Below, one piece after another: positions 1,935 through 36,959 of a stretch of 36,959 bases of DNA. Source of the stretch: Bacteroidota bacterium (lineage in GTDB: Bacteria > Bacteroidota > Bacteroidia > Flavobacteriales_F > PHOS-HE28); contig JAFDZG010000246.1 of NCBI GenBank assembly GCA_018267065.1, positions 1 through 36,959 of the forward strand, read 5' to 3'. A program made the position numbers and the translations under genes. Numbering within the stretch: position 1 is the first letter of the stretch; every line of letters starts with the position of its first letter. A model generated the notes under the pieces. That model had not been told where the DNA came from and ran no database searches. It was given only the letters and a program-made list of their open reading frames with translations.

Positions 1935-1995
1935 CTGTCCGTACTCAAGGCTGGTGCGTCCCCGTTCTATCTTTAAGCCCCACCAATCCACGCCC

Positions 1996-4900
1996 ATGCA
2001 ACACGCCCTGCGCAAAGTGCAACTTTTGCCGCTGCTGTTCTTCCTGTGTGCCCTGACTCTTCCGGGCTGCAGGTCCGATAAAGGCCCGGAACGGCCCGGC
2101 GCAGCTTTCATCCCGTACATATCCGCGTTCACTTCAGGGCACATCTCCGCCCGCGCCGCTGTCCGGGTGCGGATCGCGGAAGGCCTTGCCCTGAAGGATA
2201 CCAGCCATGCAGCGATTCAAGGCCTGTTCTCCATCAACCCATCCGTGGAGGGCACCGTAAGTTGGCAGGAAGGCCGCATCCTTGCCTTCACGCCTGCAAA
2301 GCGGCTCCTGCAGAACAGCGGATACACGGTGACCTTTCACTTGGGAAAGCTTGCCGAAGTGCCGGATGACGTGAAGGAATTCAAGTTCTCCTTTACCACG
2401 TTTGAACAGCGCATTGACCTGCGTGTGGAGGACCTGGTATCCCTGAGTCCTGCGGACCTGACCTGGCAGCGCGTGGTGGTGGGCGTGTTCACCAGCGATG
2501 ATGCCATGGGGCAGGACCTGGAGGGAAGCGTGAGCGCAACGCAGGACGGGCGTACGCTCAAGATGACCTGGGAACATGAACCCGGCGGAACGCTGCACCG
2601 GGCCATGGCCGACAGCGTGCGGCGCGGGGACAAGGCCAGCACCGTGGTGTTCACCTGGGACGCGGGCACGATCGGTGGAAAGGGAACCGGCAGCCAAACG
2701 TTCAACGTGCCTGCCATCGGCGATTTCAGCCTGATCGCGGCAACCACATCCACGGATGGCGAACAAAGCGCCACGCTGCTCTTCAGCGACCCGCTCGATC
2801 CAGCCCAGGACCTTTCCGGATTAGCCGGCATCGCGGGAGCGGACAACGTGCGCACGGGCATCACCGGCAACAAGTTGATGTTGTACCCGGAACAGCGGCT
2901 CACCGGCAACCAGAGCGCTTTCGTGGCAGCTGGCCTTAAGAACGTCAATGGCCATGCCTTGGGAAAAGACCTCACGGTAGACCTGGATTTTGAGGAAGTA
3001 AAGCCAAATGTGCGCGCCGTGGGCAACGGCACCATCCTGCCAAGCACCGATGGCCTGCTCTTCCCCTTCGAAGCCGTGAACCTCAATGCGGTGGACGTGC
3101 GCATTGTGCGCATCTACGCGGACAATGTCCCGCAATTCCTGCAGGTGAACAACTTGGCCAGCGACCGCGAACTGGCACGCGTTGGCCGCTTGGTGCTGAA
3201 GCGCACCGTGCCGCTGAACACCAAGGATTCCCCGAGGCGCGGGGAATGGAACCGGTACTACCTGGACCTGGACAAATTGATCAAGGCGGAACCGGGAGCC
3301 ATCTACCGGATCATCATCGGCTTCAGGCAGGAATGGAGCACCTACCCTTGCGGCAAACCAACGGCCGCGCCACCGCTGGTGAACACGGAACAAGGTGATG
3401 AGGAAGAAGCACAGTGGGACGAGGCGGACCAGTACTACTACAATGGCGATGAATACTATGGCGAAGGCGAGTACAACTGGAACGAACGCGAAGATCCATG
3501 CACGGCAAGCTATTTCCGCGACAAGGGCAGCGTGGTGCAGCGCAACATCCTGGCCTCCGACCTGGGCATCATCGCGAAGCGCGGAAACGACGGCTCCGTG
3601 CTGGTGGCCGTAAGCGACCTGCGAACCACGGAGCCCCTGAACAATGTGGAGATAAAGGTGCTGGACCTTCAGCGGCGGGCCATGGCCACGGTGAGCACCG
3701 ACAGGGAGGGCATGGCCACCCTGGCTTCCACCCCGCACAAACCTTTCCTGCTGGTGGCATCCAAAGGCAAACAGCGCGGCTACCTCAAATTGGATGACGG
3801 CAGCGCGCTCAGCGTAAGCAATTTCGATGTGGGCGGCGAAGAGGTGAACAAGGGACTCAAAGGCTTTCTCTACGGCGAGCGCGGCGTTTGGCGCCCGGGG
3901 GATTCGCTCTACCTCACGTTCATTCTCCAGCAAACCCTCCAAAAACTTCCCAAGGACATCCCCGTGGCGCTGGAGCTCAGTGATCCACAAGGGCGCTTGG
4001 ACCAGCGCATCGTGCGCACAACCGGGGTGGACGGCACCTATTCCTTCCGCTGCGCCACACAGCCCGACGCACCCACCGGTGTATGGAGCGCGCGCATCCT
4101 TGTGGGCGGAACTTCCTTCTACAAGCCGCTGCGCATTGAAACGGTAAAGCCCAACCGGTTGAAGATCCTGCTGGACCTGGGCGGCGACAAACGGTTTGCG
4201 GGGGATGACAAGCCGGTCCAATTGCAAGGCAACTGGCTTCACGGAGCCCCGGCCAGCGGCCTCAAGGCACGTGTCACCGCAACGTTCATGCGAAGCAGCG
4301 CGGAGTTCAACGGCTTCGCGAAATACAACTTCAACGACCTGAGGAACGACCTGGGCACCGATGAAACTCCCTTGTTCGACGGGACGCTTGATGCCAACGG
4401 GCACACGTCCTTCCCTTTCAAACTGACATGGAACGGAGGGGCGCCTTCCGCAGTAAGGGCCAACATCGTAACGCGCATTTTCGAGGCTGGCGGGGATGCC
4501 AGCATGGACCGCACTGACCTGCTGTACTATCCCTACACCAGCTACGCCGGGCTGCTTGCCGCACCACCTTCCACCGATTGGGGCGGCTACTACACGGACA
4601 CCACATACACTTTTGCGGCAGTGGCCTTGAAACCCGACGGCAAGCCGATCGCGGACCACCCCCTGAAAGTGCAAGTGGTAAAGCTGGGGTCCAACTGGTG
4701 GTGGAGCGGCGACATGGATGAACCATCCAACTACATGTCAGCTCCCAGCACGCGCGTGCTGAAGGAAGAGGACATCACCACCGATGCCCAAGGAAAGGCA
4801 CGGTTCAACTTCCGCGTGGACCGGCCGCTTTGGGGCAGTTTCATCGTACGCCTCTCCGATCCGGCAAGCGGGCATGTGGCCGCCGGGCAAGTGTATGTGG

Positions 4901-7605
4901 ATTGGCCGGGATACGGCGGGCGCAGCAGGCGCGAGGACGGCAAGGCCGCAGCCATGCTCAGCTTCAACACGGACAAAACCAAATACGCCGTGGGAGACCA
5001 ATGCGTGCTCACCATCCCCAGTTCCGGGCAAGGCCGCGCCTTGGTAAGCCTGGAAGCCGGCAGCCGGATCCTGCAGGCCAAGTGGGTGGCCATGAAAGGC
5101 ACGGAAACCAAATACAGCTTCACCATCACGAAAGACATGGTGCCGAACATCTATGCACATGTCACCCTGGTGCAGCCCCATGCCCTCACGGCTGCCGCCG
5201 GGGACAGCACCGCGAGCCGTGGCAACGACCTGCCCATCCGCCTGTACGGAGTGGTTCCCATCCTGGTGGAAGATGCCGCCACGCACCTTGCGCCCGTGAT
5301 CCTCTGTTCCAATGAATTCAAGACGGACCAGCCGTTCACGGTGCAAGTAGCCGAGAAGGACGGCAAGGCCATGACCTACACGCTGGCCATTGTGGATGAA
5401 GGCTTGCTGGACCTTACGCGCTTCAAGACTCCCGACCCTTGGGGATATTTCCTTGCCCGGGAAGCCCTCGGCGTACGCACATGGGACTTGTATGACGAAG
5501 TGATCGGTGCGTTCGGGCAACGGCTGCGCCGCGTGCTTGCCCTTGGTGGCAGCGACCAAGCCAACCCGGCCGCAGCGGCCAAGGCCCAGCGCTTCAAGCC
5601 GGTTGTGCGCTTTGTCGGTCCGTTCACCCTCGCGAAGGGCGCCAAGGCCAAGCATACGTTCACCATCAGCAACTACGTGGGCAGCGTGCGCATCATGGTG
5701 GTGGCCAACACACCGGGCGGCGCCTACGGCAGCACGGAAAAGGCGGTGCCCGTGCGCAAAGCATTGATGGTACTGGCCACGCTGCCGCGCGTGGCCGGCC
5801 CTGGCGAAACGGTGGACCTGCCCGTTACCGTATTTGCCATGGACCCCAAGGTGAAGAACGTAACGCTCAGCCTGGCCGCCAACGACCTATTCAGCGTGGA
5901 AGGCGGACTCCAACAAGCGCTCACTTTCGCCAAGACCGGAGAGCAAACGGCCTCCTTCCGCTTGAAATTGAAAGACCGCATCGGCGTTGGCAAAGTGACG
6001 CTCACGGCGGAAGGAGCCGGGGAAAAAGCATCGCAGGGCATTGAACTTGACGTGCGGCTTGCCAACCAGCCCGAAACGGATGTCGGCGCAGCCGTTGTGG
6101 AACCGGGCAAAACATGGGAAGGCACGCCTGCAGCCATTGGCGTAGCGGGCACCAACAGCGCTTATGCGGAGCTGAGCACATTGCCCCCGCTGGACATGGG
6201 GCGGCGACTGCAATACCTGATCGACTACCCGCACGGCTGCCTGGAACAGACCACCAGCAAGGCATTCCCGCAACTCTATATCGCCGACGTGATGGAAATG
6301 GGCGATGCAGGAAGGGATGAAATGCGCCGCAACGTGCAGGCCGGGCTCGGCAAGCTCAAGCAGTTCCAAACGGCCAGCGGCGGTTTCGGCTATTGGCCGG
6401 GCAATCGCGAGCCTGATGACTGGACCTCCACATTCGCGGGCCATTTCATGGTGGAAGCCGAACGCAAGGGATTTGCCGCACCACCGGGCGTGAAGGATGC
6501 CTGGCTGGCATACACACGCAAGCAAGCGCGGGACTGGGCCCCCGGCGAGCGGGACACATGGAGCCGCGGCAGCAATGAGCTTGCCCAAGCCTACCGCCTC
6601 TATGTGCTCGCATTGAACAACACCGCGGAAGCCGGTGCCATGAACCGGCTGCGCACCACGCCGAACGTTTCCGACAGGGCCCGGTGGATGCTTGCCGCCG
6701 CCTACGCATTGAACAACCGCAAGGACGTGGCCCGGGAGGTCGCAAAGAACCTCACCACCAGCGTTCAGCCTTACCGCGACATGGGATGGACGTACGGCAG
6801 CGGCCTGCGCGATGAGGCGGTCATGGCAGAAGCATTGATGGCCATGGATGACAAGCCCGCAGCCGCGGCCGTGGTGCGCACCATTTCCGGGCAGCTCGGC
6901 AGCGGCGAGTGGTACAGCACGCAAAGCACGGCGTGGGGCCTTCTTGCCGTAAGCCGTTTTACGACAGGCATGGACCTCGGCAAAACCATGCACTTCACCT
7001 CCGTGGTGAACGGGAAATCCGAGAACCGCGTGAGCGCCAAATCCATTGTGCGCCTGGACCTCCCTGCGCCGAACGGACAGCGGAAAGTCACCATCACCAA
7101 CACGGGCAAGAACCTGCTGTACCTGCGCCTGGTGCGCACGGGCACGCCCGTGGCCGGGCTGGAAACACCGGCCAGCCAGGGGCTTGCCATGGACGTATCC
7201 TACCAATCCATGGACGGCCGTGTGGTCGATCCGGCAAAACTGGACCAGGGCACGGACTTCCAAGCGGTGGTCACCGTACGCAACCCCGGCACCCGCGGGG
7301 AATACCAGCAACTGGCGCTAACGCAGGTGTTCCCCAGCGGCTGGGAGATCCGTAACAGCAGGTTGGAAGGCACGGAAAATGCCATTGTGAACGGACCGTT
7401 CAACTACCAGGACATCCGGGACGACCGCGTGCTCACATACTTCAGCCTGGGAAATGGCCAAGAAGTGACCTACCGGGTGCTGTTGAACGCCGCATATACC
7501 GGCCGCTTCCACTTGCCAAGCACCACCTGCTCCGCGATGTACGACAACACCATCAACGCCAGGAACGGCGGGCAGTGGGTGGAGGTGGTGCAACCGGGGA
7601 AATAG
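1996..7605 (+). CDS. Alpha-2-macroglobulin family lipoprotein with thioester motif
   Basis: A bacterial alpha-2-macroglobulin of 1869 residues (YfhM class), thought to trap proteases in the periplasm. I chose ATG 1996 over GTG 1954 because it gives a clean lipoprotein signal (MQHALRKVQ..., hydrophobic core, then TLPGC with the lipidated Cys at residue 25). The repeated macroglobulin-type beta domains include the typical GERGVWRPGD segment (about base 3880). The thioester motif CLEQ lies at residues 1415-1418 within YPHGCLEQTTSKAFPQ, followed by the alpha-helical thioester domain and a C-terminal beta domain. An acidic, Tyr-rich insertion occupies about residues 465-502. The usual partner pbpC (penicillin-binding protein 1C) is not in the window. 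A weak -7-like TATCTTTA lies at 1968-1975. Confidence 0.93.
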   Translation: MQHALRKVQLLPLLFFLCALTLPGCRSDKGPERPGAAFIPYISAFTSGHISARAAVRVRIAEGLALKDTSHAAIQGLFSINPSVEGTVSWQEGRILAFTPAKRLLQNSGYTVTFHLGKLAEVPDDVKEFKFSFTTFEQRIDLRVEDLVSLSPADLTWQRVVVGVFTSDDAMGQDLEGSVSATQDGRTLKMTWEHEPGGTLHRAMADSVRRGDKASTVVFTWDAGTIGGKGTGSQTFNVPAIGDFSLIAATTSTDGEQSATLLFSDPLDPAQDLSGLAGIAGADNVRTGITGNKLMLYPEQRLTGNQSAFVAAGLKNVNGHALGKDLTVDLDFEEVKPNVRAVGNGTILPSTDGLLFPFEAVNLNAVDVRIVRIYADNVPQFLQVNNLASDRELARVGRLVLKRTVPLNTKDSPRRGEWNRYYLDLDKLIKAEPGAIYRIIIGFRQEWSTYPCGKPTAAPPLVNTEQGDEEEAQWDEADQYYYNGDEYYGEGEYNWNEREDPCTASYFRDKGSVVQRNILASDLGIIAKRGNDGSVLVAVSDLRTTEPLNNVEIKVLDLQRRAMATVSTDREGMATLASTPHKPFLLVASKGKQRGYLKLDDGSALSVSNFDVGGEEVNKGLKGFLYGERGVWRPGDSLYLTFILQQTLQKLPKDIPVALELSDPQGRLDQRIVRTTGVDGTYSFRCATQPDAPTGVWSARILVGGTSFYKPLRIETVKPNRLKILLDLGGDKRFAGDDKPVQLQGNWLHGAPASGLKARVTATFMRSSAEFNGFAKYNFNDLRNDLGTDETPLFDGTLDANGHTSFPFKLTWNGGAPSAVRANIVTRIFEAGGDASMDRTDLLYYPYTSYAGLLAAPPSTDWGGYYTDTTYTFAAVALKPDGKPIADHPLKVQVVKLGSNWWWSGDMDEPSNYMSAPSTRVLKEEDITTDAQGKARFNFRVDRPLWGSFIVRLSDPASGHVAAGQVYVDWPGYGGRSRREDGKAAAMLSFNTDKTKYAVGDQCVLTIPSSGQGRALVSLEAGSRILQAKWVAMKGTETKYSFTITKDMVPNIYAHVTLVQPHALTAAAGDSTASRGNDLPIRLYGVVPILVEDAATHLAPVILCSNEFKTDQPFTVQVAEKDGKAMTYTLAIVDEGLLDLTRFKTPDPWGYFLAREALGVRTWDLYDEVIGAFGQRLRRVLALGGSDQANPAAAAKAQRFKPVVRFVGPFTLAKGAKAKHTFTISNYVGSVRIMVVANTPGGAYGSTEKAVPVRKALMVLATLPRVAGPGETVDLPVTVFAMDPKVKNVTLSLAANDLFSVEGGLQQALTFAKTGEQTASFRLKLKDRIGVGKVTLTAEGAGEKASQGIELDVRLANQPETDVGAAVVEPGKTWEGTPAAIGVAGTNSAYAELSTLPPLDMGRRLQYLIDYPHGCLEQTTSKAFPQLYIADVMEMGDAGRDEMRRNVQAGLGKLKQFQTASGGFGYWPGNREPDDWTSTFAGHFMVEAERKGFAAPPGVKDAWLAYTRKQARDWAPGERDTWSRGSNELAQAYRLYVLALNNTAEAGAMNRLRTTPNVSDRARWMLAAAYALNNRKDVAREVAKNLTTSVQPYRDMGWTYGSGLRDEAVMAEALMAMDDKPAAAAVVRTISGQLGSGEWYSTQSTAWGLLAVSRFTTGMDLGKTMHFTSVVNGKSENRVSAKSIVRLDLPAPNGQRKVTITNTGKNLLYLRLVRTGTPVAGLETPASQGLAMDVSYQSMDGRVVDPAKLDQGTDFQAVVTVRNPGTRGEYQQLALTQVFPSGWEIRNSRLEGTENAIVNGPFNYQDIRDDRVLTYFSLGNGQEVTYRVLLNAAYTGRFHLPSTTCSAMYDNTINARNGGQWVEVVQPGK

Positions 7606-21638: not shown

Positions 21639-24600
21639 TCACGGCACCTGCTCTGAACGGGTCTGCGTGCTGAGGGAACTGCCCAGTACAATGAGCACCT
21701 GGTCACGGTCGTTTGATGGCCCGGTGTAGGACACAACGCCGTCCATGTTCACGTCGCAATTGTTGTAGCCCGATACGGTGTGCGTGGGTTCCAAACCGCC
21801 CGTCAACAGCAGGATCGCGTCCCGGTCGTTGTTCACTCCGGTATATTTCACCTTGCCGTCGTCATTCACGTTGCCCGGCCATAGGGCCATCACACCGCCC
21901 ACGTTCCTTTGGGCGGCGGTTCCGAAGGTGGGCGTGGAAGGCAGCGTGAAATCCAGCAGTTCACCGTTGCCGGTGAGCAGCGTGGTGGAAAGCGCCGCCA
22001 GGTGGTTGCGGTGCCTTACGGCCACATGGCGGTTGGCCGTAGTTCCATTGAAACCCAACAGCACATTGCCGTCCGGGGCCACCACCGTGCCGTCACGCAA
22101 CAGGAGCGCAGCCCTGCGGCCTGCCAGGGAATACGCGGGATTGTCCTCGTGCAATTCCAGCATCACCCAATCCACCACCGCTTGGGACCCCGTTGCCTGC
22201 ATCACGGCAGGGGAAGCGACAGCACCGGCATTCTCCACCACATAGCCCATGGCCGTATAGGGTTCAATGGAAGGAACCAGTCCTTGTGCACGCAGGTCGT
22301 CGCGCATCAACGAGCTTCCGGACTGCATGGCCCCGCCCAGCATCATCTTAACGCGGACCTTGCCCGTGGGCACGGCAGCCCCGCAATCCGGGCCTTCATA
22401 CTTGTAGGCAACCACCGAGGAGTAGGCCGGCACCGTAATGGATGCCGCAAGGAAATTGCCTGCAACATCCTTCCAGCAACCGTCCGGAAGCGTAAAGCTT
22501 TGCGCGGTTGCCAGTTCATTCACAAAAATCTTGTGCCGCACGGCCGGATCAAGCGGCTGCACCGTCACCTTGGTCACCTCCACATTATCGAGGTAGTACA
22601 TCGGGTCGGTCCATTCGTTGACGAACTGGATCTGTGCCTGGTCCGTAAGGTCGCTCTGGAAATACATCTCCAGGTCGCGGCGTTCCGAGGTTGCCGGAAG
22701 CATCCATTGCCACGTGGTGTAAGGCGTGGAGAAGGTGGACTGCCCCTTGATGCCCACGGTGACATCCTCGGGGTTGTTGCTCTGGATGCTGCACCGCACC
22801 CGGTACCACGCGCCGTTCTGAATGGGGAAAAGGTCCGGATTGTGCAGCGTGAAGTTCGGATACATGCTGTTGTCAGGCAGGTAAGCCTTCAGTGCGCCAT
22901 TGTCCAAATGATCGGTTACCCGGCTCACTTGTGCGTTGGTGGGCCAGCCGGTCCAGCCGTTCACATTGTTGGTGAAATTCCCGTTGATCACCAGGTTGGA
23001 GCCCAATTCCTGCACGGTTGCATAATCGGACAACCTGAGTGGGCTGCGTGTGCTGCCAGCATCTTCGTTCTTTTCCTGTTGCCAGCGTTCAAGGCTGAAA
23101 AAACGCGGGTTGCCCACCACGAAATTGATGACCTTGATGCTGAGTTCGTTGTAAGGGTTGAAGTAGCGGTTGTTGGCGTAGGTGCCGAAATCCACCGGAT
23201 CGGCCCCGTGCGTGTTGTACTGCAGCATGCAGAGCTGGTCCTTGGTGAGGCAGTACATTACGTTTCCGCTGTACACATCGTTGTAGTTGGGCACATAGTA
23301 CGGGGGCGTGGCGCCTGCACCGGTTGCGTTGGAATAGTCGGACACCGTGATCTGCACGCCGTTATTGAAGAACACGTTGTCCTTGATCTGCAGCCCGGTG
23401 GTCACCATGGTGTGGTCCACGTGAATGCCCGATTGCGGGCAGTTGTACACGGTGTTGCGCTGGGCCGTGGTGTTCTTGATGGATGTGTTCCCGAAGTAGA
23501 TGCCGATGCCCATCCGCTCATTGTGGGGCACCGTATTGGGGCAACCGTTCTGCCAGGAGCCGATGGGGTCGCTTACGATATTGTCCTGGATCACCAAGCC
23601 ATCAGCGTGATCAATGGCAATGCCGCCGCCATCGTTCATGGAGGCCAGCGGATGGTGCACCACGTTCTTCTCCACCAAGGCATTCGCCTCGGCGATGATC
23701 CCGATGTAGCCGATGGTGTCCAACCGGTTGCCGCGGATAATGGTGCCCGAACCCGTGGTGCGGATGCCGAAATAGCCCCATGCGCTCTCACCCTCACCGT
23801 CCACCAGTGCGATGGCGTTCAGGGTGTTGTCCGAGATCTGGATGCCGTTGCCCAATGCCATGATGCCCGTGGCATAGGTGTTCCTGAACGTGCAACCGGT
23901 ATAGGTGCTGTTCGTTCCGGCGCAACGGATGCCATGGTAAAGGTCCCTGAAGGAGCAGCCTGCCACCGTCACATGGTCGGCACCGTCGTTCAATACACCG
24001 GCAAGGCGCTGGTGCCGGAATTCCAGGTTCTCAATGCGGAGATAGGACCGGTGCCAGTAACAGTTCACACCGGTCTTGTACACGGCCGCCTCCACGTTCT
24101 GGCTGCCGGGATCACCATTGTTGGGGGGCCAGAAGTAGAGCTGCTGCGCGGTGCGGTCGTAATACCATTCGCCCGGGCTGTCCAGCTCGGAAAGCTTGTT
24201 CTTCATGAAGAAGCCCCATTGCGTGTTGCCCAAGTTGAGGGTGGGTGTGGTGAAATTGAGCGTGCCGGTGGAATAATTGGAGACCACCAGCGTATCAAAC
24301 GAACTGGCGGAGCTGCGCACTACGGCCGTGGCACCGTTCCAATACCCCGAAGGCTGCGTGAGGTCCGCGCTTTGGATCTGCGTGCCGCCTCCTTGGTTGT
24401 TGCGCAGCCATCCGCTGTTGGGGTAGCGTGCGGGGGTCATGCGCACACCGTTCACGTAAACCTGCTCCACCCTTCCGCTGGTAACGGAAGCCCTCCAGAT
24501 ATGGCCTTGGTAATTGCTCCAGCCCGTGACCAGTTCACTGCCCTTGATGAGGGGCTTTGCGCCGGTGCCATAAGCACCCACTGTAATTACTTGGCCCGCT

Positions 24601-24833
24601 GTTCCATTCACGCCCAGAATGATCTCACCACGCCATGTTCCACCACGTTCAAATAAGATCCTGTCCCCCGGCTGGTAGCTGAAGGCATTTTGGTTTACAC
24701 GCCAAATGGTGCGCCATGCCGCGGCAGGCGATGTTCCGTTATTGGAATCATTGCCGCTTTGCGAAACGTAATAATCCGTGCAATGGGCGGCCATGCCAAG
24801 GAGCAGGCCGATGAGCGAAAGGATGTACCGCAT
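21639..24833 (-). CDS. Secreted right-handed beta-helix protein with a C-terminal dockerin-like module
   Basis: From ATG 24833 the protein has 1064 residues and an export signal (MRYILSLIGLLLGMAAHC). The N-terminal half starts with YYVSQSGNDSNNGTSP and AAAWRTIWRVN, typical of DUF1565/NosD-type right-handed beta-helix proteins that often act on or bind polysaccharide. A beta-sandwich region like a carbohydrate-binding module follows (NLVINGNFTNNVNGWTGW onward, about bases 22540-23000). The last 240 residues (below about base 22370) form a separate module ending in two EF-hand-like loops, NVNDDGKVKYTGVNNDRD and DVNMDGVVSYTGPSNDRD. No T9SS type A or B domain is seen. Catalytic residues are not identifiable, so no enzyme activity is claimed. 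Confidence 0.82.
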   Translation of the reverse strand: MRYILSLIGLLLGMAAHCTDYYVSQSGNDSNNGTSPAAAWRTIWRVNQNAFSYQPGDRILFERGGTWRGEIILGVNGTAGQVITVGAYGTGAKPLIKGSELVTGWSNYQGHIWRASVTSGRVEQVYVNGVRMTPARYPNSGWLRNNQGGGTQIQSADLTQPSGYWNGATAVVRSSASSFDTLVVSNYSTGTLNFTTPTLNLGNTQWGFFMKNKLSELDSPGEWYYDRTAQQLYFWPPNNGDPGSQNVEAAVYKTGVNCYWHRSYLRIENLEFRHQRLAGVLNDGADHVTVAGCSFRDLYHGIRCAGTNSTYTGCTFRNTYATGIMALGNGIQISDNTLNAIALVDGEGESAWGYFGIRTTGSGTIIRGNRLDTIGYIGIIAEANALVEKNVVHHPLASMNDGGGIAIDHADGLVIQDNIVSDPIGSWQNGCPNTVPHNERMGIGIYFGNTSIKNTTAQRNTVYNCPQSGIHVDHTMVTTGLQIKDNVFFNNGVQITVSDYSNATGAGATPPYYVPNYNDVYSGNVMYCLTKDQLCMLQYNTHGADPVDFGTYANNRYFNPYNELSIKVINFVVGNPRFFSLERWQQEKNEDAGSTRSPLRLSDYATVQELGSNLVINGNFTNNVNGWTGWPTNAQVSRVTDHLDNGALKAYLPDNSMYPNFTLHNPDLFPIQNGAWYRVRCSIQSNNPEDVTVGIKGQSTFSTPYTTWQWMLPATSERRDLEMYFQSDLTDQAQIQFVNEWTDPMYYLDNVEVTKVTVQPLDPAVRHKIFVNELATAQSFTLPDGCWKDVAGNFLAASITVPAYSSVVAYKYEGPDCGAAVPTGKVRVKMMLGGAMQSGSSLMRDDLRAQGLVPSIEPYTAMGYVVENAGAVASPAVMQATGSQAVVDWVMLELHEDNPAYSLAGRRAALLLRDGTVVAPDGNVLLGFNGTTANRHVAVRHRNHLAALSTTLLTGNGELLDFTLPSTPTFGTAAQRNVGGVMALWPGNVNDDGKVKYTGVNNDRDAILLLTGGLEPTHTVSGYNNCDVNMDGVVSYTGPSNDRDQVLIVLGSSLSTQTRSEQVP

Positions 24834-28627: not shown

Positions 28628-29392
28628 ATGAGTGAACAGGAAGCAGCGATCTGCCCGTTGAGCATCGTGCCGGTGCGCGCCGAGCCCAATGACAGGGCCG
28701 AACAGGTTACCCAATGGCTTTTTGGCGAAACTGCGGATGTGCTGGAACGCGCCGGCAAATGGGCCCGCCTGCGGTTCCACCATGATGATTATGAAGGCTG
28801 GGCGGACGTGAAGCAGATCGCGGCTGCCGGGGGGGAGGAAGCGAAGCCCGTTCGGTCCATTGAACAGTTCCTGCACATCAACACCGCATCAGGAGCGCTG
28901 CTGGTGCCGTTTGGCGCGGTATTGCCGGGCTATGCCGCAGGTGCTTTCCGCATTGGCCAGGAACGGCTCACCTTTCCCGGACGCACCACCGCCCAGCCCA
29001 ACGGCACCCCGGTGATGCGGATCCTCGCCTTGAAGGACCAGTGGCTGAACACGCCTTACCTCTGGGGCGGCCGCTCCCCTTTCGGCGTGGATTGCTCCGG
29101 CCTCACCCAAATGCTCTTCCTCGCCGGTGGCGTAAGCTTGAAACGCGATGCCTGGCAACAGGCGGAGCAAGGCACCTCCGTGGATTTCATCGACTTGGCC
29201 ACCACCGGCGACCTCGCTTTTTTCGACAACGATGAAGGCCGCATCATCCACGTGGGCATCATCCTTGAAAAGCACCGGATCCTGCATGCCTCGGGCCGCG
29301 TACGGATCGATACCTTGGACCACCAGGGCATCTTCAATGCTGAAGCGGGCTGCTATACCCATCGTTTGCGCACCATCAAGCGCATCGTGTAG
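28628..29392 (+). CDS. NlpC/P60 family cysteine peptidase with SH3-like domains
   Basis: A 254-residue peptidoglycan hydrolase of the NlpC/P60 family, which cuts between D-gamma-Glu and the diamino acid of the stem peptide. The catalytic triad is visible: Cys156 (FGVDCSGLTQ), His208 (IIHVGI) and His220 (ILHASG). The first 120 residues look like SH3-type domains (VPVRAEPNDRAEQVTQWLFGE, then KWARLRF and DYEGWAD). ATG 28628 is in a good position. No export signal is visible at this start, as in many Bacteroidota homologues, so a role in muropeptide recycling in the cytosol is possible. A CATTTTCG element ends four bases before the ATG. Confidence 0.9.
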   Translation: MSEQEAAICPLSIVPVRAEPNDRAEQVTQWLFGETADVLERAGKWARLRFHHDDYEGWADVKQIAAAGGEEAKPVRSIEQFLHINTASGALLVPFGAVLPGYAAGAFRIGQERLTFPGRTTAQPNGTPVMRILALKDQWLNTPYLWGGRSPFGVDCSGLTQMLFLAGGVSLKRDAWQQAEQGTSVDFIDLATTGDLAFFDNDEGRIIHVGIILEKHRILHASGRVRIDTLDHQGIFNAEAGCYTHRLRTIKRIV

Positions 29393-29415
29393 CCGCCATG
29401 ATCCCGGCACCGGGG

Positions 29416-29435
29416 CCAACTTCGCCCGAAGTTGG
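29416..29435. terminator. Short perfect hairpin between the NlpC and xseA genes
   Basis: CCAACTTC (29416-29423) and GAAGTTGG (29428-29435) form an 8-bp stem with a GCCC loop, 23 bases after the NlpC stop. No U-run follows, so it may be a weak terminator or an mRNA processing site. Confidence 0.4.
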
Positions 29436-29452
29436 TACACTTGCCCGTGCCG

Positions 29453-30835
29453 ATGGCGGAACGCAAAGTCTATACACTGAGCCAAATTGGCTCCGCGATC
29501 AAAAAGCGGATCGAGGAGGCCACGCACGGCGAAGCCTATTGGATCAAGGCGGAGATCGCCTCCATCCGCTGCACGCAGCACGCTTACCTGGAACTTGCCC
29601 AGCACCGGGACGGCGAGAAGGTCGCCGTGATGCGCGGCACCATTTGGTCCTCCTCCTTGCAGCAGATCCGCCATGCGCTTGGGGCTGAAAGCGGCAATAT
29701 CCTGAAGGACGGCGTGGAGATCCTCTTCCTGGCCAAACCACGCTATCATTTGGTATACGGACTGAGCCTGGCCATCGAGGAGATCGACCTGGACTTCAAC
29801 ATCAGCGGGATGGAGCGCCGTAAGCGCGAAACCATCGCCACGCTGAAAGCGGAGGGCCTTATCCACCGCAACCGGCTGCTGCCGCTGCCGATCGTGATCC
29901 AGCGCATCGCCTTGATCTCCTCTGCAGGCACCGCCGCCTACGCGGACCTGATGCAGCACCTGGAGAACAACGAGCACGGCTACCGCTTCCACGTGCAAGT
30001 CTTCAATGCGTCCGTGCAGGGCGACGCGGCTGCTGCCGAACTCCGCGCTGCCGTGTCCGCCATTGATCCACCATGCTTCGACGCCGTGGTGATCATTCGC
30101 GGAGGCGGCTCCAAGCTGGACCTTGAGCCCTTCAACGACCTGGAACTTGCACGCTTGGTGGCTACGTTGCCCATCCCCGTTCTTACCGGCATCGGCCATG
30201 AAGTGGACATTTCGGTGCTGGACCTGATCGCCAACAGCCCGCACAAAACGCCCACGGCAGCCGCGGACTTCATCGTGGACCGCATGCTCTATTTTGAAAC
30301 AGGCATGACCGGCATGCTGTCGGAGATCCACAACACCATGCTTGCCGCATTTTCCCGGCACAAGGAAACACTTGGCGCCTGGAGGGAGATGGCCACCATG
30401 CGGCCCGCTGCGCATTGCCGCGTGCAACGCGGTGCATTGCACACCTTCACCAGCCAGTTCACGCGCCTGATCACCGAAGAATTGAACGGGCAGGACAAAC
30501 TGCTGGACGGTTTCGGCCAAAGCCTGCTTGTCCTGCCCCGCCACAAACTGGCCCAGGTGGAAACAGCACGGGTCCGCGAAATGGCTTCCGCCCTTGCAGC
30601 CCGCGCCCAGCTGGGCATCCAGCATGTGATCGGCAAACTGGAGGGCATCGGCAACGCCGTGCACCTGCTTGCCCCGGAGCGGCTGCTGGAGCGCGGGTTC
30701 AGCATTGCACGGGCCGGGGGAAAGGCCATCAAGCACGCGGCGTTGCTGAAGCCCGGTGACGAAATTGAAACCACCTTTGCCAACGGAAGAACGTGGTCCA
30801 CCGTCAACAAGATCGAAGCCGATGGAAAAGGTTGA
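29453..30835 (+). CDS. xseA: Exodeoxyribonuclease VII large subunit
   Basis: A 460-residue catalytic subunit that degrades single-stranded DNA from both ends to oligonucleotides. ATG 29453 gives MAERKVYTLSQIGSAIKKRI, the start of the N-terminal OB-fold. The core contains RIALISSAGTAAYADL, the DAVVIIRGGGSKLDLEPFNDLELA loop and PVLTGIGHEVDISVLDLIA, all hallmarks of the XseA nuclease domain. It is followed by a long helical region and a C-terminal beta part (LLERGFSIARAGGKAIK). TTG 29432 is possible but less likely. It overlaps xseB by 14 bases. Confidence 0.95.
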   Translation: MAERKVYTLSQIGSAIKKRIEEATHGEAYWIKAEIASIRCTQHAYLELAQHRDGEKVAVMRGTIWSSSLQQIRHALGAESGNILKDGVEILFLAKPRYHLVYGLSLAIEEIDLDFNISGMERRKRETIATLKAEGLIHRNRLLPLPIVIQRIALISSAGTAAYADLMQHLENNEHGYRFHVQVFNASVQGDAAAAELRAAVSAIDPPCFDAVVIIRGGGSKLDLEPFNDLELARLVATLPIPVLTGIGHEVDISVLDLIANSPHKTPTAAADFIVDRMLYFETGMTGMLSEIHNTMLAAFSRHKETLGAWREMATMRPAAHCRVQRGALHTFTSQFTRLITEELNGQDKLLDGFGQSLLVLPRHKLAQVETARVREMASALAARAQLGIQHVIGKLEGIGNAVHLLAPERLLERGFSIARAGGKAIKHAALLKPGDEIETTFANGRTWSTVNKIEADGKG

Positions 30836-31028
30836 AGCGAAGCTCACCTATGAAAAGGCCTACGCCGAACTGGAGCAGATCATGCAGGACCTGCAGCAGG
30901 ACAAAATTTCCGTGGACGACCTTTCCGCCAAGGTGAAGCGTGCCGTTATGCTGATCACGTTCTGCAATGAAATGCTGCGCAGCACGGAAGCGGAAGTGGG
31001 CGCACTGGTGAAGAAACTTGGCCTCTGA
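30822..31028 (+). CDS. xseB: Exodeoxyribonuclease VII small subunit
   Basis: A 68-residue helical protein starting at ATG 30822 inside the end of xseA. The family pattern is clear: LTYEKAYAELEQIMQDLQQDKISVDDLSAKVKRA (read as two helices), then a third helix ending GALVKKLGL. XseB subunits coat the XseA helices in the holoenzyme. The 14-base overlap suggests translational coupling to hold subunit ratios. Its stop is 17 bases from that of the convergent T9SS gene. Confidence 0.93.
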   Translation: MEKVEAKLTYEKAYAELEQIMQDLQQDKISVDDLSAKVKRAVMLITFCNEMLRSTEAEVGALVKKLGL

Positions 31029-31045
31029 CCGGCACACACACCGGC

Positions 31046-34000
31046 TCAATGGCCTGAACCGACCAATTCAATGGTGCCGGCAAGGACTTCCACGGCAGCA
31101 TCCGCACTACGGACCGTGATCGAATAGAAGTATGTTCCATCGCTGCACGCAATTCCGGCGGGCGTGTGCCCGTCCCAGCCGCCATGCACCAGGTTCCCTT
31201 CATAAACCAGGTTTCCCCAGCGGTTCCAGACCCTCACGTCCAAGCCTTTGAAATTGCCGGTGGGCAGCCAAACATCATTGACCCCGTCCCCATTGGGGGA
31301 AAACACATTGGGCACCTCCAACCCGCACACCTCTTCACCCACCTGCACCATGGCTTGCACTGCACAGCCATGGAGATCCATGGCCTGTACGCTTACCGCA
31401 CCCGGTTCCGTAAGCACAATGGATGAACCGGTACCGCCCGTGGACCATTGAACATCACTGAATCCCGGGGGAAGTTGCAACGTCACACTTTCGCCGGCAC
31501 AGATCGCCGTATCCGCCGGGATCCCCGGAGCAACCGGTTCCAATATGGTTACAAACAGGGATGATGGCGGTCCATCGCATCCTTGCAAAAACGGCGTACA
31601 CACGTACGCGCCCATATCCGCCGCGGTGGTTGCGGGAATATTGATGCCGACACCTTGGAGCGATGCCGTCGGCGTGGTCCATTGAAATTGCACCAATCCA
31701 GTATCCTGGGCCATGATCTGCAAGGGCGTGCCCAAGCAAATACTGTCCGGTCCCGTCAAGACCGGTGCGCCGGGGCTTGGCAACACCTCCACCCAAACGC
31801 TGTCGGCCGGCCCCGTGCAGTTCCCTTCCGCCAACCGCACAATGAGCAGCATGCTGGTGCCCGGTGCAAACGACCAGGACTGGCCGTTGCCCAGCAGCGA
31901 ACCATCCACCGCGTACCAGTTTACTTGCCCGGTGCCGGAAGCGTGCACTACTGCCGTATCGCCGCCGCAAACCGTATCGCCGGTGGCAATGGGCGGGCCC
32001 GGAACAACCGCCTGTGTTACCTGCACGGCGGCTGATGTGTCAGTGCAGCCGAATGAGTTGGTCATCACCACGCTATATGTGCCCGGTTGGGAAACGACCA
32101 GGTCCGGGCCAACTTCCTGCCCCGGCAGCCAACTGTACGCATAAGCCCCGGTATCCGCTTGAAGCACGAGCGTATCACCGGGGCAAAGCACATACGGAGA
32201 GGGAGTGGAGATCGCCGCTTGGACCGCTCCGTTCTCCACCACAATGCCCAGAGTTGTGGTGATCCCACAGGAAGAAACTGAGCAAGTGTAGGTTCCCGGT
32301 TGATCCACCACCTGCAGCGGTGCGTTCCCACCCAAGGGTGCATCCCACACGATGGAAGCCCCAGGCGTGGCCAGCACTTGGATGGTGACCTGGTCATCCG
32401 GCCCGCACAGCGCCTGTGCCCCGTTCAGCGCTAGGAACGGCGTGCCGTACTGGCTGATGGTAATGCTGTTGCTGGTGAGGGGGCAACCCTGCACATCCAT
32501 GCCGAGAAAATACGTGCCCGGCGTGGCCGTGGTGAACGTGGTGCCCAAGCCGCTGATCGGCGGGAAGGGGCCGTACCACACCACATTGGTGCCTTGTGCG
32601 GTGGTGGTAATGGTTGCAGCAGCCCCGGGACATAGAATGCCATCGGGAGGTGAAACGGTGAGCACTGGTGGGTTGGGCGTGGGGATATACTGGAAGGCAG
32701 CCCCCGTAACGTTGCAGCCATTGCTGTCCACCGCCATGGCAGTGAGCAACAGATAACCCGGTGCCCACATCCGATAACCCATTGCCCCGTATGGAGCGCC
32801 ACCGGGTGAACTCCATGCCAAGGAATCACAGATGTTGCATGAGGCCGTGAAAATCACTGTATCGCCGCTGCATATCACCTCCGGTCCGGAAAATTGGACA
32901 GTAACGGGAACGGGGGCGAAGAACCTTATGTACACGCTGTCCACACCATGGACAAACAACGTATCACCGCACCCACCGTTATCTACCCGGACCACCACGT
33001 GAAAGACGCGCCAGCCTTCTGTAAGCACCAGTATGGCTCCGCCGCCTGGTCCATCCGTGTTCGGCAAATCCGGTTCAATTGGGGAAAGTGCGTAATGAAG
33101 GTTCAGGCCAGCAGGAATGTGCTCCACCGGGGCACCGTTCATGGTCCAAGATGGAACATAGTTGTAAGAAATGAACGGTTGAGGGCAAACATCGATGGTG
33201 TCGTTCTGGTCCGGATCCTGCGGAAACTGAACGACCATGGACATGCCCAGTCCGTCCAAGGAAACAAACGCATTATCTTCAACTTGTACTGCCTGACTTG
33301 AAACGCACCCGAAGGAATTCACATAGTTGCAATGATAAAATCCCGTAGTATCCAATAGCACCGAATCGTTGGTTACCGCCTGACCGGAGGGCGACTGCCA
33401 AATCACGGAACAATCAGAGGGAACATTGTTCGCCCACACCCATTGGGGTTGTGAGTTGCAGAGTCCGATGATACCCGGAAAGGATTCCTGCACGGATACT
33501 GCGGAATCACCGGAAATCACCGGTGTGGTCGGCGATGGATTGACATGCACCTGCACTGTATCTGCCCATTGCCAGCACCCGTTCAGCGCAGTGACTTGCG
33601 CCCAAAAGATATCTGAAGCCGTGATGGGAGGATGCCTGTAGTCTGGGCTTCCATCCGACCATGTTAAATCGGCGGCAGGACCGATGCTGTACAGGTAGGG
33701 CACCTTCACAACAGAAAAGGATGCGGTTGCATAAATTTCACCGAGAGGGCAGATGGCCAAGCTATCCAAGCAATCCGCGGGTACAGGCCCGGCTATAATG
33801 CACAAGTCACCTCTCTCAAGTACACAATCCCCGCCTTCACGGCGCCACCAATCATAGGGCCTTCTGCCCTGCACGTATCCGCGCGCCAGGAACCCGTCTT
33901 CGAAAGCCGAAGCAACAATGCCGGCATAAGAACCGTAGTTGGGGTCCCCGCAGTAACTCGTTGCATCATTTCCGTTCAGGGTCGTGGCCTCAGTGGAAAT

Positions 34001-35386
34001 CTCCGCAGCAAAGCCGGGCTGTGCGGGGAAAATCAGTGTTCCCTGGAACGATCCGCAAAACACCAGATCACCTCCGGGGAGGTAACACATCCCTCCGGCC
34101 GTCTTGCCGGAGATGCCCCCGAACTGCTGCGCCTCCTGCAGCGCCAAACCGTTCAACGCATGCTTGGCCACAAACAGATCTTGTGTGCCTGTGGCCATGA
34201 ACAGGGCATCGCTGCCATAAAAAAGCATGAGATCGGAAAACTGGCAGGTGAATGATCCGAGCACCGCAACCGAGTTGCCTTGCGCCGCAACTGCACTCAC
34301 CGTAACCCCGCTTGTGGAACCTTTGGTGGACAGCTCCAACAACTGCCCATCGCTGCCCACCTTCAACAAGTAGTAGGAATAAGCCCCGCTTCCGGGAACC
34401 GGAACATTGGTGCCCCCAGCCCAAACCATGGTTCCTTGCAGGTCCCCCACCACCAGGAGACCACCATCGGGTGCAAGGGAAATGTCCCGCACTTGGTTGA
34501 AGGTTGCGCCGCCCATGCGGCGGAACCAGCTGTCCGTGCCGTCCGGTGCGAGGCAAAGCAGGAATCCCGCGTTCAACATGGTGTTGGTGTACGTCTGGCC
34601 GAAAGTGATGTCCTGGCTGAACTGGCCTGCGACGTACAAGTTGCCCGCGGCATCATGGATGATGTCCACGGCCTGGTCGTCCTTGGGGGCTGCGCCTTGC
34701 TTCACCCAAAGCAACGAGCCTGTGGGTGAATAATCGGCAATGAACACATCGGCACTGGGCAAGCCGGTATCCGGATCGTTGGTGCTCGTCAATGAAGTTG
34801 CATCCCACTGCGCCGTGCCCCGGAACAAGCCGGTAACCGCCACCTGCCCGTCCGGGGCCATGCTTACCCCGGCAGGGGCATCCGTGCCCGTTGGCCCGCC
34901 TCCTTGGCGCACCCATTGCAGCGTGCCATCCGTCTTGTTCACCAACGCAACAAACATGTCCGTGGTGCCAGCGGCACTGGTCAACGTGGTGCCAAACAAA
35001 TTGGCGGTCCCCATGAACTCGCCGGCAACGGCAACTGCGCCACCGTTGCCCACGGAGAGCTTCAAGCCGCGATCGATCCCGGCACCTCCCCCGCGTCGCA
35101 ACCAGATCAAGTTCCCTGCGGCATCCAAGCGGGCCACGAATGCATCAAGGCCCCCATAACCGGCCAAGCCCACACTATCAAGCAAAAAGGTTCCGCCGTA
35201 GTCCCCGGTAACATAGATGGAGCCATCCACATCCACTTGCACATCGGCAATGTGATCATTGCCCGGACTTCCCGCCTTTAAGGCCCAATAGGGTTGCGCT
35301 TGTGTGGCCGTGCATGCCAAGCCGGAGCATACGGCAATGGCCAAACGCAACATCCGGTGCAATTGATCAGCAAAGGTTCCAAGCAT
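31046..35386 (-). CDS. Large T9SS cargo protein with propeller repeats, Ig-like domains and a gliding-motility type C-terminal domain
   Basis: A 1446-residue surface or secreted protein. ATG 35386 is used; ATG 35353 (MLRLAIAVCSGLACTATQAQ) is an equally good signal-peptide start. About residues 30-480 hold SBBP-like propeller repeats (VDVDGSIYVTGDYGG, LDAFVARLDAAGNLIWLR). A Cys-rich linker and about eight Ig/PKD-like domains follow (repeated PGTYxxxVxxxxG and CxGDTxxxxA motifs). The last 90 residues (bases 31046-31335) are the type B sorting domain: VPNVFSPNGDGVNDVWLP, WNRWGNLVYEG and W-DG...CSDGTYFYSI. The C-terminal domain shows export through the type IX system and is strong evidence for a Bacteroidota host. 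The ligand is unknown. Confidence 0.93.
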   Translation of the reverse strand: MLGTFADQLHRMLRLAIAVCSGLACTATQAQPYWALKAGSPGNDHIADVQVDVDGSIYVTGDYGGTFLLDSVGLAGYGGLDAFVARLDAAGNLIWLRRGGGAGIDRGLKLSVGNGGAVAVAGEFMGTANLFGTTLTSAAGTTDMFVALVNKTDGTLQWVRQGGGPTGTDAPAGVSMAPDGQVAVTGLFRGTAQWDATSLTSTNDPDTGLPSADVFIADYSPTGSLLWVKQGAAPKDDQAVDIIHDAAGNLYVAGQFSQDITFGQTYTNTMLNAGFLLCLAPDGTDSWFRRMGGATFNQVRDISLAPDGGLLVVGDLQGTMVWAGGTNVPVPGSGAYSYYLLKVGSDGQLLELSTKGSTSGVTVSAVAAQGNSVAVLGSFTCQFSDLMLFYGSDALFMATGTQDLFVAKHALNGLALQEAQQFGGISGKTAGGMCYLPGGDLVFCGSFQGTLIFPAQPGFAAEISTEATTLNGNDATSYCGDPNYGSYAGIVASAFEDGFLARGYVQGRRPYDWWRREGGDCVLERGDLCIIAGPVPADCLDSLAICPLGEIYATASFSVVKVPYLYSIGPAADLTWSDGSPDYRHPPITASDIFWAQVTALNGCWQWADTVQVHVNPSPTTPVISGDSAVSVQESFPGIIGLCNSQPQWVWANNVPSDCSVIWQSPSGQAVTNDSVLLDTTGFYHCNYVNSFGCVSSQAVQVEDNAFVSLDGLGMSMVVQFPQDPDQNDTIDVCPQPFISYNYVPSWTMNGAPVEHIPAGLNLHYALSPIEPDLPNTDGPGGGAILVLTEGWRVFHVVVRVDNGGCGDTLFVHGVDSVYIRFFAPVPVTVQFSGPEVICSGDTVIFTASCNICDSLAWSSPGGAPYGAMGYRMWAPGYLLLTAMAVDSNGCNVTGAAFQYIPTPNPPVLTVSPPDGILCPGAAATITTTAQGTNVVWYGPFPPISGLGTTFTTATPGTYFLGMDVQGCPLTSNSITISQYGTPFLALNGAQALCGPDDQVTIQVLATPGASIVWDAPLGGNAPLQVVDQPGTYTCSVSSCGITTTLGIVVENGAVQAAISTPSPYVLCPGDTLVLQADTGAYAYSWLPGQEVGPDLVVSQPGTYSVVMTNSFGCTDTSAAVQVTQAVVPGPPIATGDTVCGGDTAVVHASGTGQVNWYAVDGSLLGNGQSWSFAPGTSMLLIVRLAEGNCTGPADSVWVEVLPSPGAPVLTGPDSICLGTPLQIMAQDTGLVQFQWTTPTASLQGVGINIPATTAADMGAYVCTPFLQGCDGPPSSLFVTILEPVAPGIPADTAICAGESVTLQLPPGFSDVQWSTGGTGSSIVLTEPGAVSVQAMDLHGCAVQAMVQVGEEVCGLEVPNVFSPNGDGVNDVWLPTGNFKGLDVRVWNRWGNLVYEGNLVHGGWDGHTPAGIACSDGTYFYSITVRSADAAVEVLAGTIELVGSGH

Positions 35387-35660: not shown

Positions 35661-36959
35661 TCAGAACCGCAAGGTGTACTGGACAACCGGCAACAGCGCC
35701 AACTGCGGCACGTCCTTGATGGTCCGCGTCCGCTTGTCGTAGTAGTAATACACCGGCTTGGCCGCGTTCAGCACGTTCTGCACATCCACCTTGAACTCGT
35801 GGCTCACCTTGGGACGCCCCACGCGGTAGCTGGCCACGATGTCCACTTTGTGGATGGCAGCGGCCTTTTCGCTCCACACCGGGGTGCCGTCCTTCTGCTC
35901 ACCGGCGGCGATACTGGCCTGCAGGTCGATCGGCGTGTAGTACTGGCCGCCTTGCACCGACCAGCGGAACCCGGCCAGCAGCGTGCGGTCCTTGTCCTCG
36001 GGGCCCAGCTTCCACTCCTTGCCGGCAAGCACATTGGCCACCGGCCCAATGTTGAACCGCGAGTTGTGCCATTGTCCGTCCAAGGCCTTGTACTTTGATT
36101 CGCTGTAAGAGGCGGTGACCATGTAGTGGTATCCACGGGTGAAGTACTTCTCCACGCTCAGTTCCAACCCGCGGTTGTAGCCGGTGCCTTCGTTCACCAG
36201 CGGCTTGTTGGTGAACCATTCCACCATGTTGTTGGCCGTGAACGCGCTGGTGGGATCGTTCTCCACGGGCAGGTCGTAGAGGTATTGGTAGAACAGCTCG
36301 GCCTTCAGTTGCACGTCTTCCGCAAGGCGCTGCTCATAGCCCGCCACTACGTGCGCTGCACGGGTGAGGCCCAGGTGCTCGTTGGGCGTGGTGATCTTTC
36401 CGTCGGCATCCACATCCTGCGCCAGGTAGGTCATCAGCGCCTCGGTCTTGGAGTGGAGTCCCGCACCCAGGGTGAAAGCACGGTCCGGACGTTGCTGGTA
36501 GCGCAGGGCCAAGCGCGGTTCCACGCTGGTGGCGTTGTTGAGGTCGTAGTGGAGCACATGCACGCCGCTGGTCAGCGTCCATTGTTCGTTCCAGCGCCAA
36601 CGCCAGCTGGTGAAGGCCTGCACGGTGTTGCCCTCGCCGCTGCGGTCCAGGTTCACCACCATGCGGTCGCGGTCGGGGTCCCAGGAGTTGGAGTACATCC
36701 GGAACTGTTCGGCGGAAATGATGATGCCCGAGCGCAGCTTGTGGTGCGCGTTGATGCGCGTGTTCAAGGTGCTGGAAAGGCGCCAGGTCCACTTGGCCAG
36801 GTCGTCCTCATGGCGGAGTTCCTGTGCGCTCTCACCCGGTGCGGGGCTTTCGGTGTAGTCCGTACCGCTGCCGTTGCCGCTGAGCGAGAGGTTGGTGTAG
36901 AGGTAGCTGTGCTCGCCCAGGGTGCGGGTGTGGCCCAGGCCCAGCACGCCCATGCGGGA
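35661..36959 (-). CDS. TonB-dependent outer-membrane receptor (5' partial)
   Basis: The frame is open through the window end, so only the last 432 residues are present, about half of a receptor. They form alternating aromatic beta-strands of a 22-strand barrel (TWRLSSTLNTRINAHHKL, VEPRLALRYQQRPDRAFTLGAGLHSK) and include the GLELSVEKYFTRGYHYMVTASYSESKYK region. The C-terminus VPQLALLPVVQYTLRF ends with Phe, as barrel proteins do. The plug domain and TonB box are outside. The type looks like carboxypeptidase-regulatory-domain receptors of Bacteroidota, but the substrate cannot be told. A good terminator follows. Confidence 0.9.
   Translation of the reverse strand, partial: SRMGVLGLGHTRTLGEHSYLYTNLSLSGNGSGTDYTESPAPGESAQELRHEDDLAKWTWRLSSTLNTRINAHHKLRSGIIISAEQFRMYSNSWDPDRDRMVVNLDRSGEGNTVQAFTSWRWRWNEQWTLTSGVHVLHYDLNNATSVEPRLALRYQQRPDRAFTLGAGLHSKTEALMTYLAQDVDADGKITTPNEHLGLTRAAHVVAGYEQRLAEDVQLKAELFYQYLYDLPVENDPTSAFTANNMVEWFTNKPLVNEGTGYNRGLELSVEKYFTRGYHYMVTASYSESKYKALDGQWHNSRFNIGPVANVLAGKEWKLGPEDKDRTLLAGFRWSVQGGQYYTPIDLQASIAAGEQKDGTPVWSEKAAAIHKVDIVASYRVGRPKVSHEFKVDVQNVLNAAKPVYYYYDKRTRTIKDVPQLALLPVVQYTLRF

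Follow-up and report, generated by a model that had tools for sequence, protein, structure and literature searches.

A portable X-dockerin-like C-terminal module that probably stands in for the type A T9SS domain on secreted proteins of Bacteroidota

A 36,959 nt stretch of Bacteroidota DNA (contig JAFDZG010000246.1, referred to here as the window) carries the gene for a large beta-helix protein, and the C-terminal part of this protein raises the question of whether it is an anchoring or sorting domain of a kind that has gone unrecognised, as was proposed from inspection of the sequence. The module forms the last 239 residues of the protein (21642–22358, minus strand; stop codon at 21639–21641), and translation probably starts at an ATG at 24833 (MRYILSLIGLLLGMAAHC...), giving a product of 1064 aa (Table 1). 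The original prediction had placed the module at 21639–22370, and while all of the motifs it quoted are found in the module translation (VAVRHRNHLA, VRVKMMLGGAMQ, NVNDDGKVKYTGVNNDRD, DVNMDGVVSYTGPSNDRD and the terminal TRSEQVP), the end at 22370 takes in four linker residues.

Table 1. Features of the beta-helix protein gene and its C-terminal module (window coordinates)
Feature	Coordinates	Strand	Evidence
Gene for a 1064-aa secreted right-handed beta-helix protein, module at end	21639..24833	-	ORF and translation; Pfam Beta_helix 4e-15, GH141_M insertion domain
Probable Sec signal peptide, ~18 residues	24780..24833	-	Read by eye
Cargo region, beta-helix and following domain, 807 aa	22359..24779	-	Pfam; paralogue with type A T9SS domain, 75% identical
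N-terminal half of module, X-module-like beta domain, ~155 aa	21894..22358	-	AlphaFold model; whole-module match to X-dockerin dyads
Conserved RHRNH motif in X-like half	22002..22016	-	HRNH in 99/99 sequences, R115 in 93/99
Dockerin-like half, two EF-type loops, 84 aa	21642..21893	-	Profile A4 against PDB; distant member against Dockerin_1
EF-type loop 1, NVNDDGKVKYTGVNNDRD, 16 residues	21819..21872	-	Helix begins at invariant D178, the expected EF position 12
EF-type loop 2, DVNMDGVVSYTGPSNDRD, 16 residues	21702..21755	-	D202 and D217 in 99/99; helix begins at D217
Terminal EQVP motif	21642..21653	-	Family mostly [EQ]Q[LVI]P at extreme C-terminus

Scans with Pfam and NCBIfam returned no family that covers the module, and none of the T9SS models in either library matches the window protein at E<=1, in keeping with the claims that the module is unrecognised and free of a T9SS signature. 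This negative result is informative because the same scans detect a type B sorting domain (TIGR04131, CHU_C) in the same window, at 31049–35386 on the minus strand, where the gene encodes a 1446 aa SBBP-repeat protein. The type A models (TIGR04183, PF18962), which do not match the window protein at E<=1, also failed to match 28 and 99 relatives at E<=0.1, while the type B models (TIGR04131, PF13585) matched no module. The full NCBIfam scan gave no T9SS match, with a library that may not hold a model for type C (ChiA). Elsewhere the window encodes an alpha-2-macroglobulin-type protein of the bacterial kind (1954–7602, plus strand; 1883 aa from a GTG start), and two long ORFs (28892–30847 and 35664–36953, both minus strand) in which neither Pfam nor NCBIfam finds anything at E<=1e-5.

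The genome containing the window is a 3.34 Mb draft in which the module occurs ten times, the other nine copies matching at E values of 1e-22 to 1e-63 with 40–48% identity to the window copy. These matches, together with residues that are invariant across 99 relatives (HRNH, NDR, D202, D217 and the final proline), argue that the module is not a chance resemblance; 95 of the 99 end in QLP, QVP, QIP or QMP. All complete copies in this genome are C-terminal and follow differing proteins, the cargo (named partly by eye) including fungalysin-type, C25-like and trypsin-like proteases, a reprolysin-like protein, a metallophosphatase, and PKD and FG-GAP proteins. When one genome per species was scanned, 555 relatives were recovered, and the 80 loci that were kept are all from Bacteroidota; viral contigs and plasmids, when searched, held no relatives of the module. 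Across more than 140 frames, not a single residue follows the module in any complete near relative. The parts upstream of 100 non-redundant modules fall into 30 unrelated clusters, and 56 of these parts match 57 Pfam families, with cargo types that include M36, C25, reprolysin and PPAD-type enzymes as well as kelch, FG-GAP and PKD proteins. A start resembling a signal peptide was found, by a crude rule, in 75 of 89 complete module proteins. The module is thus portable on varied Bacteroidota proteins, as had been supposed, and the profile search of Bacteroidota that was set as the test of this idea extends well beyond one family of orthologues and almost never finds the module at internal positions. 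It was detected in 52 of 395 sampled Bacteroidota genomes with a narrow profile (22 family groups) and in 54 with a broader one. More distant members have dockerin-like loops of ordinary length, mostly followed by a similar ...VP tail.

An AlphaFold model built from the 99 aligned modules shows one compact unit (mean pLDDT 96.8, pTM 0.93). Foldseek searches with this model gave nothing at E<0.001, and placed two X-dockerin chains within the first seven entries. When the 1000 top chains were realigned with VIA-align, five X-dockerin dyads, in which a beta-sandwich module is packed on a dockerin with two EF-type loops, had Z scores of 8.5–9.4 over 143–146 residues at 3.7–4.1 Å, and the next entry scored 3.8. 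The whole 239 residues therefore resemble an X-module plus dockerin dyad, which bears out the description of the module as dockerin-like. A diverse profile (A4) searched against PDB sequences also placed dockerins and the CipA XDoc chain at the top (E 3e-4 to 2e-3). The Pfam Dockerin_1 model (PF00404) does not match the window module, and two distant members match it, one of them at the cut-off (22.9 bits). Since the dockerin half folded alone retrieved no dockerins, it is the profile and the fold of the module as a whole that link it to dockerins.

The loops themselves had been noted as unlike the classical dockerin pattern, and in 97 of the 99 sequences the distance from EF position 1 to the aspartate that starts the helix is indeed 16 residues, with YTGxxNDRD inserted; the XDoc arrangement, a pair of 12-residue calcium loops whose ligands occupy positions 1, 3, 5 and 12, is not found. 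The suggested need for calcium fares unevenly. Loop 2 carries a full ligand set in 84 of 99 sequences by a strict rule and in 99 of 99 by a relaxed one, but loop 1 does so in only 28 of 99 by the strict rule, and its frequent degeneracy weakens the case for a general calcium role. The loop ligands thus back the predicted calcium dependence in part.

A closer view of what the module may do comes from the beta-helix cargo, which was searched for in 45 genomes of the genus and matched in 44, mostly as two copies of unequal frame length. The second copy in the window's own genome (G000:C145) is 75% identical and ends in a type A T9SS domain. The same pairing, a single type A copy beside a single module copy, is seen in 30 genomes, and one more has two plus one; in the other ten genomes with fetched copies, one copy is absent or its tail is unassigned. 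The type A-like tails of two loci (L188 and L194) fall below threshold and were assigned by eye. The two tails never occur together in a near-relative frame (0 of 164/194). In genome G427 a single 1.94 Mb contig carries both the type A and the module gene, and a gap-free DNA alignment of the two, 2,429 bp long and 98.27% identical, begins just past the signal peptide and ends at the tail junction. Two of the beta-helix module copies (L158 in G430 and L189 in G417) seem to have lost their frame or been cut short within the module, by decay or sequencing error, and in three other genomes (L170, L221 and L223, in G396, G405 and G395) the beta-helix frame continues past the cargo into more repeats, with neither a module nor a type A tail as far as it was read.

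In a tree of the cargo, copies of one lineage are neighbours whatever their tail, and a topology that unites all module copies in one clade is rejected (p-AU 0.0003). Taken by itself the cargo tree implies at least 13 changes of tail, and repeated independent tail swaps were considered as an explanation; the modules of the beta-helix copies, however, form nearly one group (2 changes against 28 when shuffled), and a BatE-like gene adjoins the module copy in all eight loci examined. Clustered modules and conserved synteny favor one old duplication with gene conversion over repeated swaps. The simplest history is that the duplicates have long had differing tails and that repeated gene conversion has acted on the cargo with the tails preserved, so that the cargo appears to be homogenised while the tails stay distinct. 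The exchange of tails extends to other proteins. Among loci fetched for other purposes, type A homologues were found for 10 of 56 module-cargo clusters, including those of a C25-type protein, of the M36 protease in G431 and of a pair of PPAD-type proteins, one with each tail, on the same contig (L057; 66% identical).

The gene for SprA, part of the T9SS translocon, is present in all 52 genomes with the module and in 304 of the 395 sampled (Fisher p 4e-7, a value that ignores phylogeny, and many of the listed genomes without SprA belong to one family). The window's own genome encodes SprA and yields about 150 type A matches, and the module occupies the type A-like position, closing off Sec-exported cargo at the very C-terminus in a genome equipped with T9SS. 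Among 723 clustered flanking ORFs there is no conserved neighbor or dedicated shuttle gene, just recurrent cargo and ordinary synteny. PorV-family proteins have multiplied in the genus of the window (45 genomes; 4–6 in most), and are candidate shuttles for CTDs of other types, although no tie to the module was seen.

As the module takes the place of the type A tail on homologous cargo, where the export machine is present, and has no such tail after it in near relatives, it is best read as an alternative address module. The explanation we favor, and regard as reasonably probable, is that it is a portable X-dockerin-like C-terminal address module that replaces the type A T9SS domain on some Sec-exported, T9SS-type cargo. 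Under the proposed mechanism, Sec would transport the protein into the periplasm, where a shuttle protein, or the machinery of the T9SS at the outer membrane, would recognise the folded C-terminal module in place of a type A domain. Once translocated, the dockerin-like half would dock on a cell-surface receptor, and the fate of the cargo would thereby differ from that of its type A twin. It is possible, and we put this forward tentatively, that the module represents a further class of T9SS sorting module built on an X-dockerin fold, with the twin genes keeping one copy per tag, their cargo being converted, and the tag setting the destination.

The fold could instead be taken at face value. Clostridial X-dockerin dyads fix scaffoldins to cell-surface cohesins (PMC5141474), and both the fold match to these dyads and the dockerin matches of profile A4 are what would be expected of a purely anchoring dockerin that, as in cellulosomes, attaches to a scaffold or to a cell-surface receptor of the cohesin type, its carrier being exported by an unrelated route without T9SS. 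We consider this unlikely. The cohesin family PF00963 was found neither in the window's own genome (E<=0.1) nor in the 45 genomes of the genus (E<=0.01), thresholds at which a very divergent cohesin would escape; this explanation also leaves the route across the outer membrane unaccounted for, and the module stands exactly where the T9SS-directing part of its twin stands.

The position, the exchange with type A and the association with SprA would also fit a module that is an export signal only, a further CTD type that is removed or inert after export and whose dockerin-like fold is incidental, and type C shows that there are CTD types beyond the first ones (PMC10202324). The size of the module, about 240 residues, is far above that of the type A model (~70 residues), and the strict conservation of RHRNH and NDRD, as judged from the alignment, suggests a binding surface. 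A divergent internal copy also bears on the matter. In one orthologous group (L267-L271, from five genomes of deep Bacteroidota lineages), proteins of ~2,100 aa carry the module near residues 1280–1540; after it come Ig-like repeats and then a type A-like tail of their own, the latter recognised by eye in most members. The fold alone, therefore, need not be an export signal, and in these proteins it is unlikely to be one, so that a role in docking alone is conceivable. Taken together, these points make the export-signal-only explanation quite improbable. The C-termini of secreted enzymes often bear beta-sandwich accessory domains, and the internal copy would suit a plain domain of this kind, but that the module is a substrate- or glycan-binding accessory, C-terminal by chance and with the export signal elsewhere in the protein, is very improbable given that proteases, deiminases, beta-propellers and adhesin-like cargo have no common substrate, that near relatives never add the module to a type A domain, and that the G427 cargo bears one tail or the other.

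If the address-module interpretation holds, it has consequences for how secretomes are read. T9SS cargo is catalogued by CTD type, and an unlisted type, present in 54 of 395 sampled genomes and attached to many proteins, would mean that part of the secretome has been missed. We found no paper in the open-access literature on a dockerin-like T9SS sorting module. Near-identical twins that differ in their tails amount to a natural experiment on the part played by a C-terminal tag, and they connect a docking fold of cellulosomes with surface display in Bacteroidota.

Among known systems, the closest in fold are the type II XDoc dyads of the clostridial scaffoldins CipA and ScaA (PDB 2b59, 4fl4, 5g5d, 4u3s and 4wi0), which have the same order of a beta-module followed by a dockerin with two EF loops; ~145 residues superpose at 3.7–4.1 Å, and the diverse profile matches CipA XDoc weakly (E 7e-4). 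The module differs from them in sequence (10–15% identity), in its 16-residue loops with YTGxxNDRD, in the conserved RHRNH and in the terminal QLP, and it is found on many enzymes and other cargo rather than on scaffoldins, in T9SS hosts and in a genus with no Pfam cohesin. With Dockerin_1 (PF00404) it shares the duplicated DxNxDG loop and the helix that follows, but its loops are longer and are coupled to an X-like half, and the Dockerin_1 model does not pick up members from around the window's genus. The known T9SS CTDs are of types A, B and C (PMC10202324). The module resembles the type A CTD (TIGR04183, PF18962) in lying at the extreme C-terminus, in the cargo families it is attached to and in being evolutionarily interchangeable with it on the same cargo, whereas it is longer (~240 against ~70 residues), has no sequence match to it, and is X-dockerin-like where the type A fold is a seven-strand Ig-like domain (PMC10202324). 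Types B (TIGR04131, PF13585) and C (ChiA) illustrate that one secretion system can use alternative C-terminal sorting domains, and genes with the module differ from those of type B in having no linked PorP/SprF-like neighbor, which is usual for that type (PMC10202324, PMC12618676).
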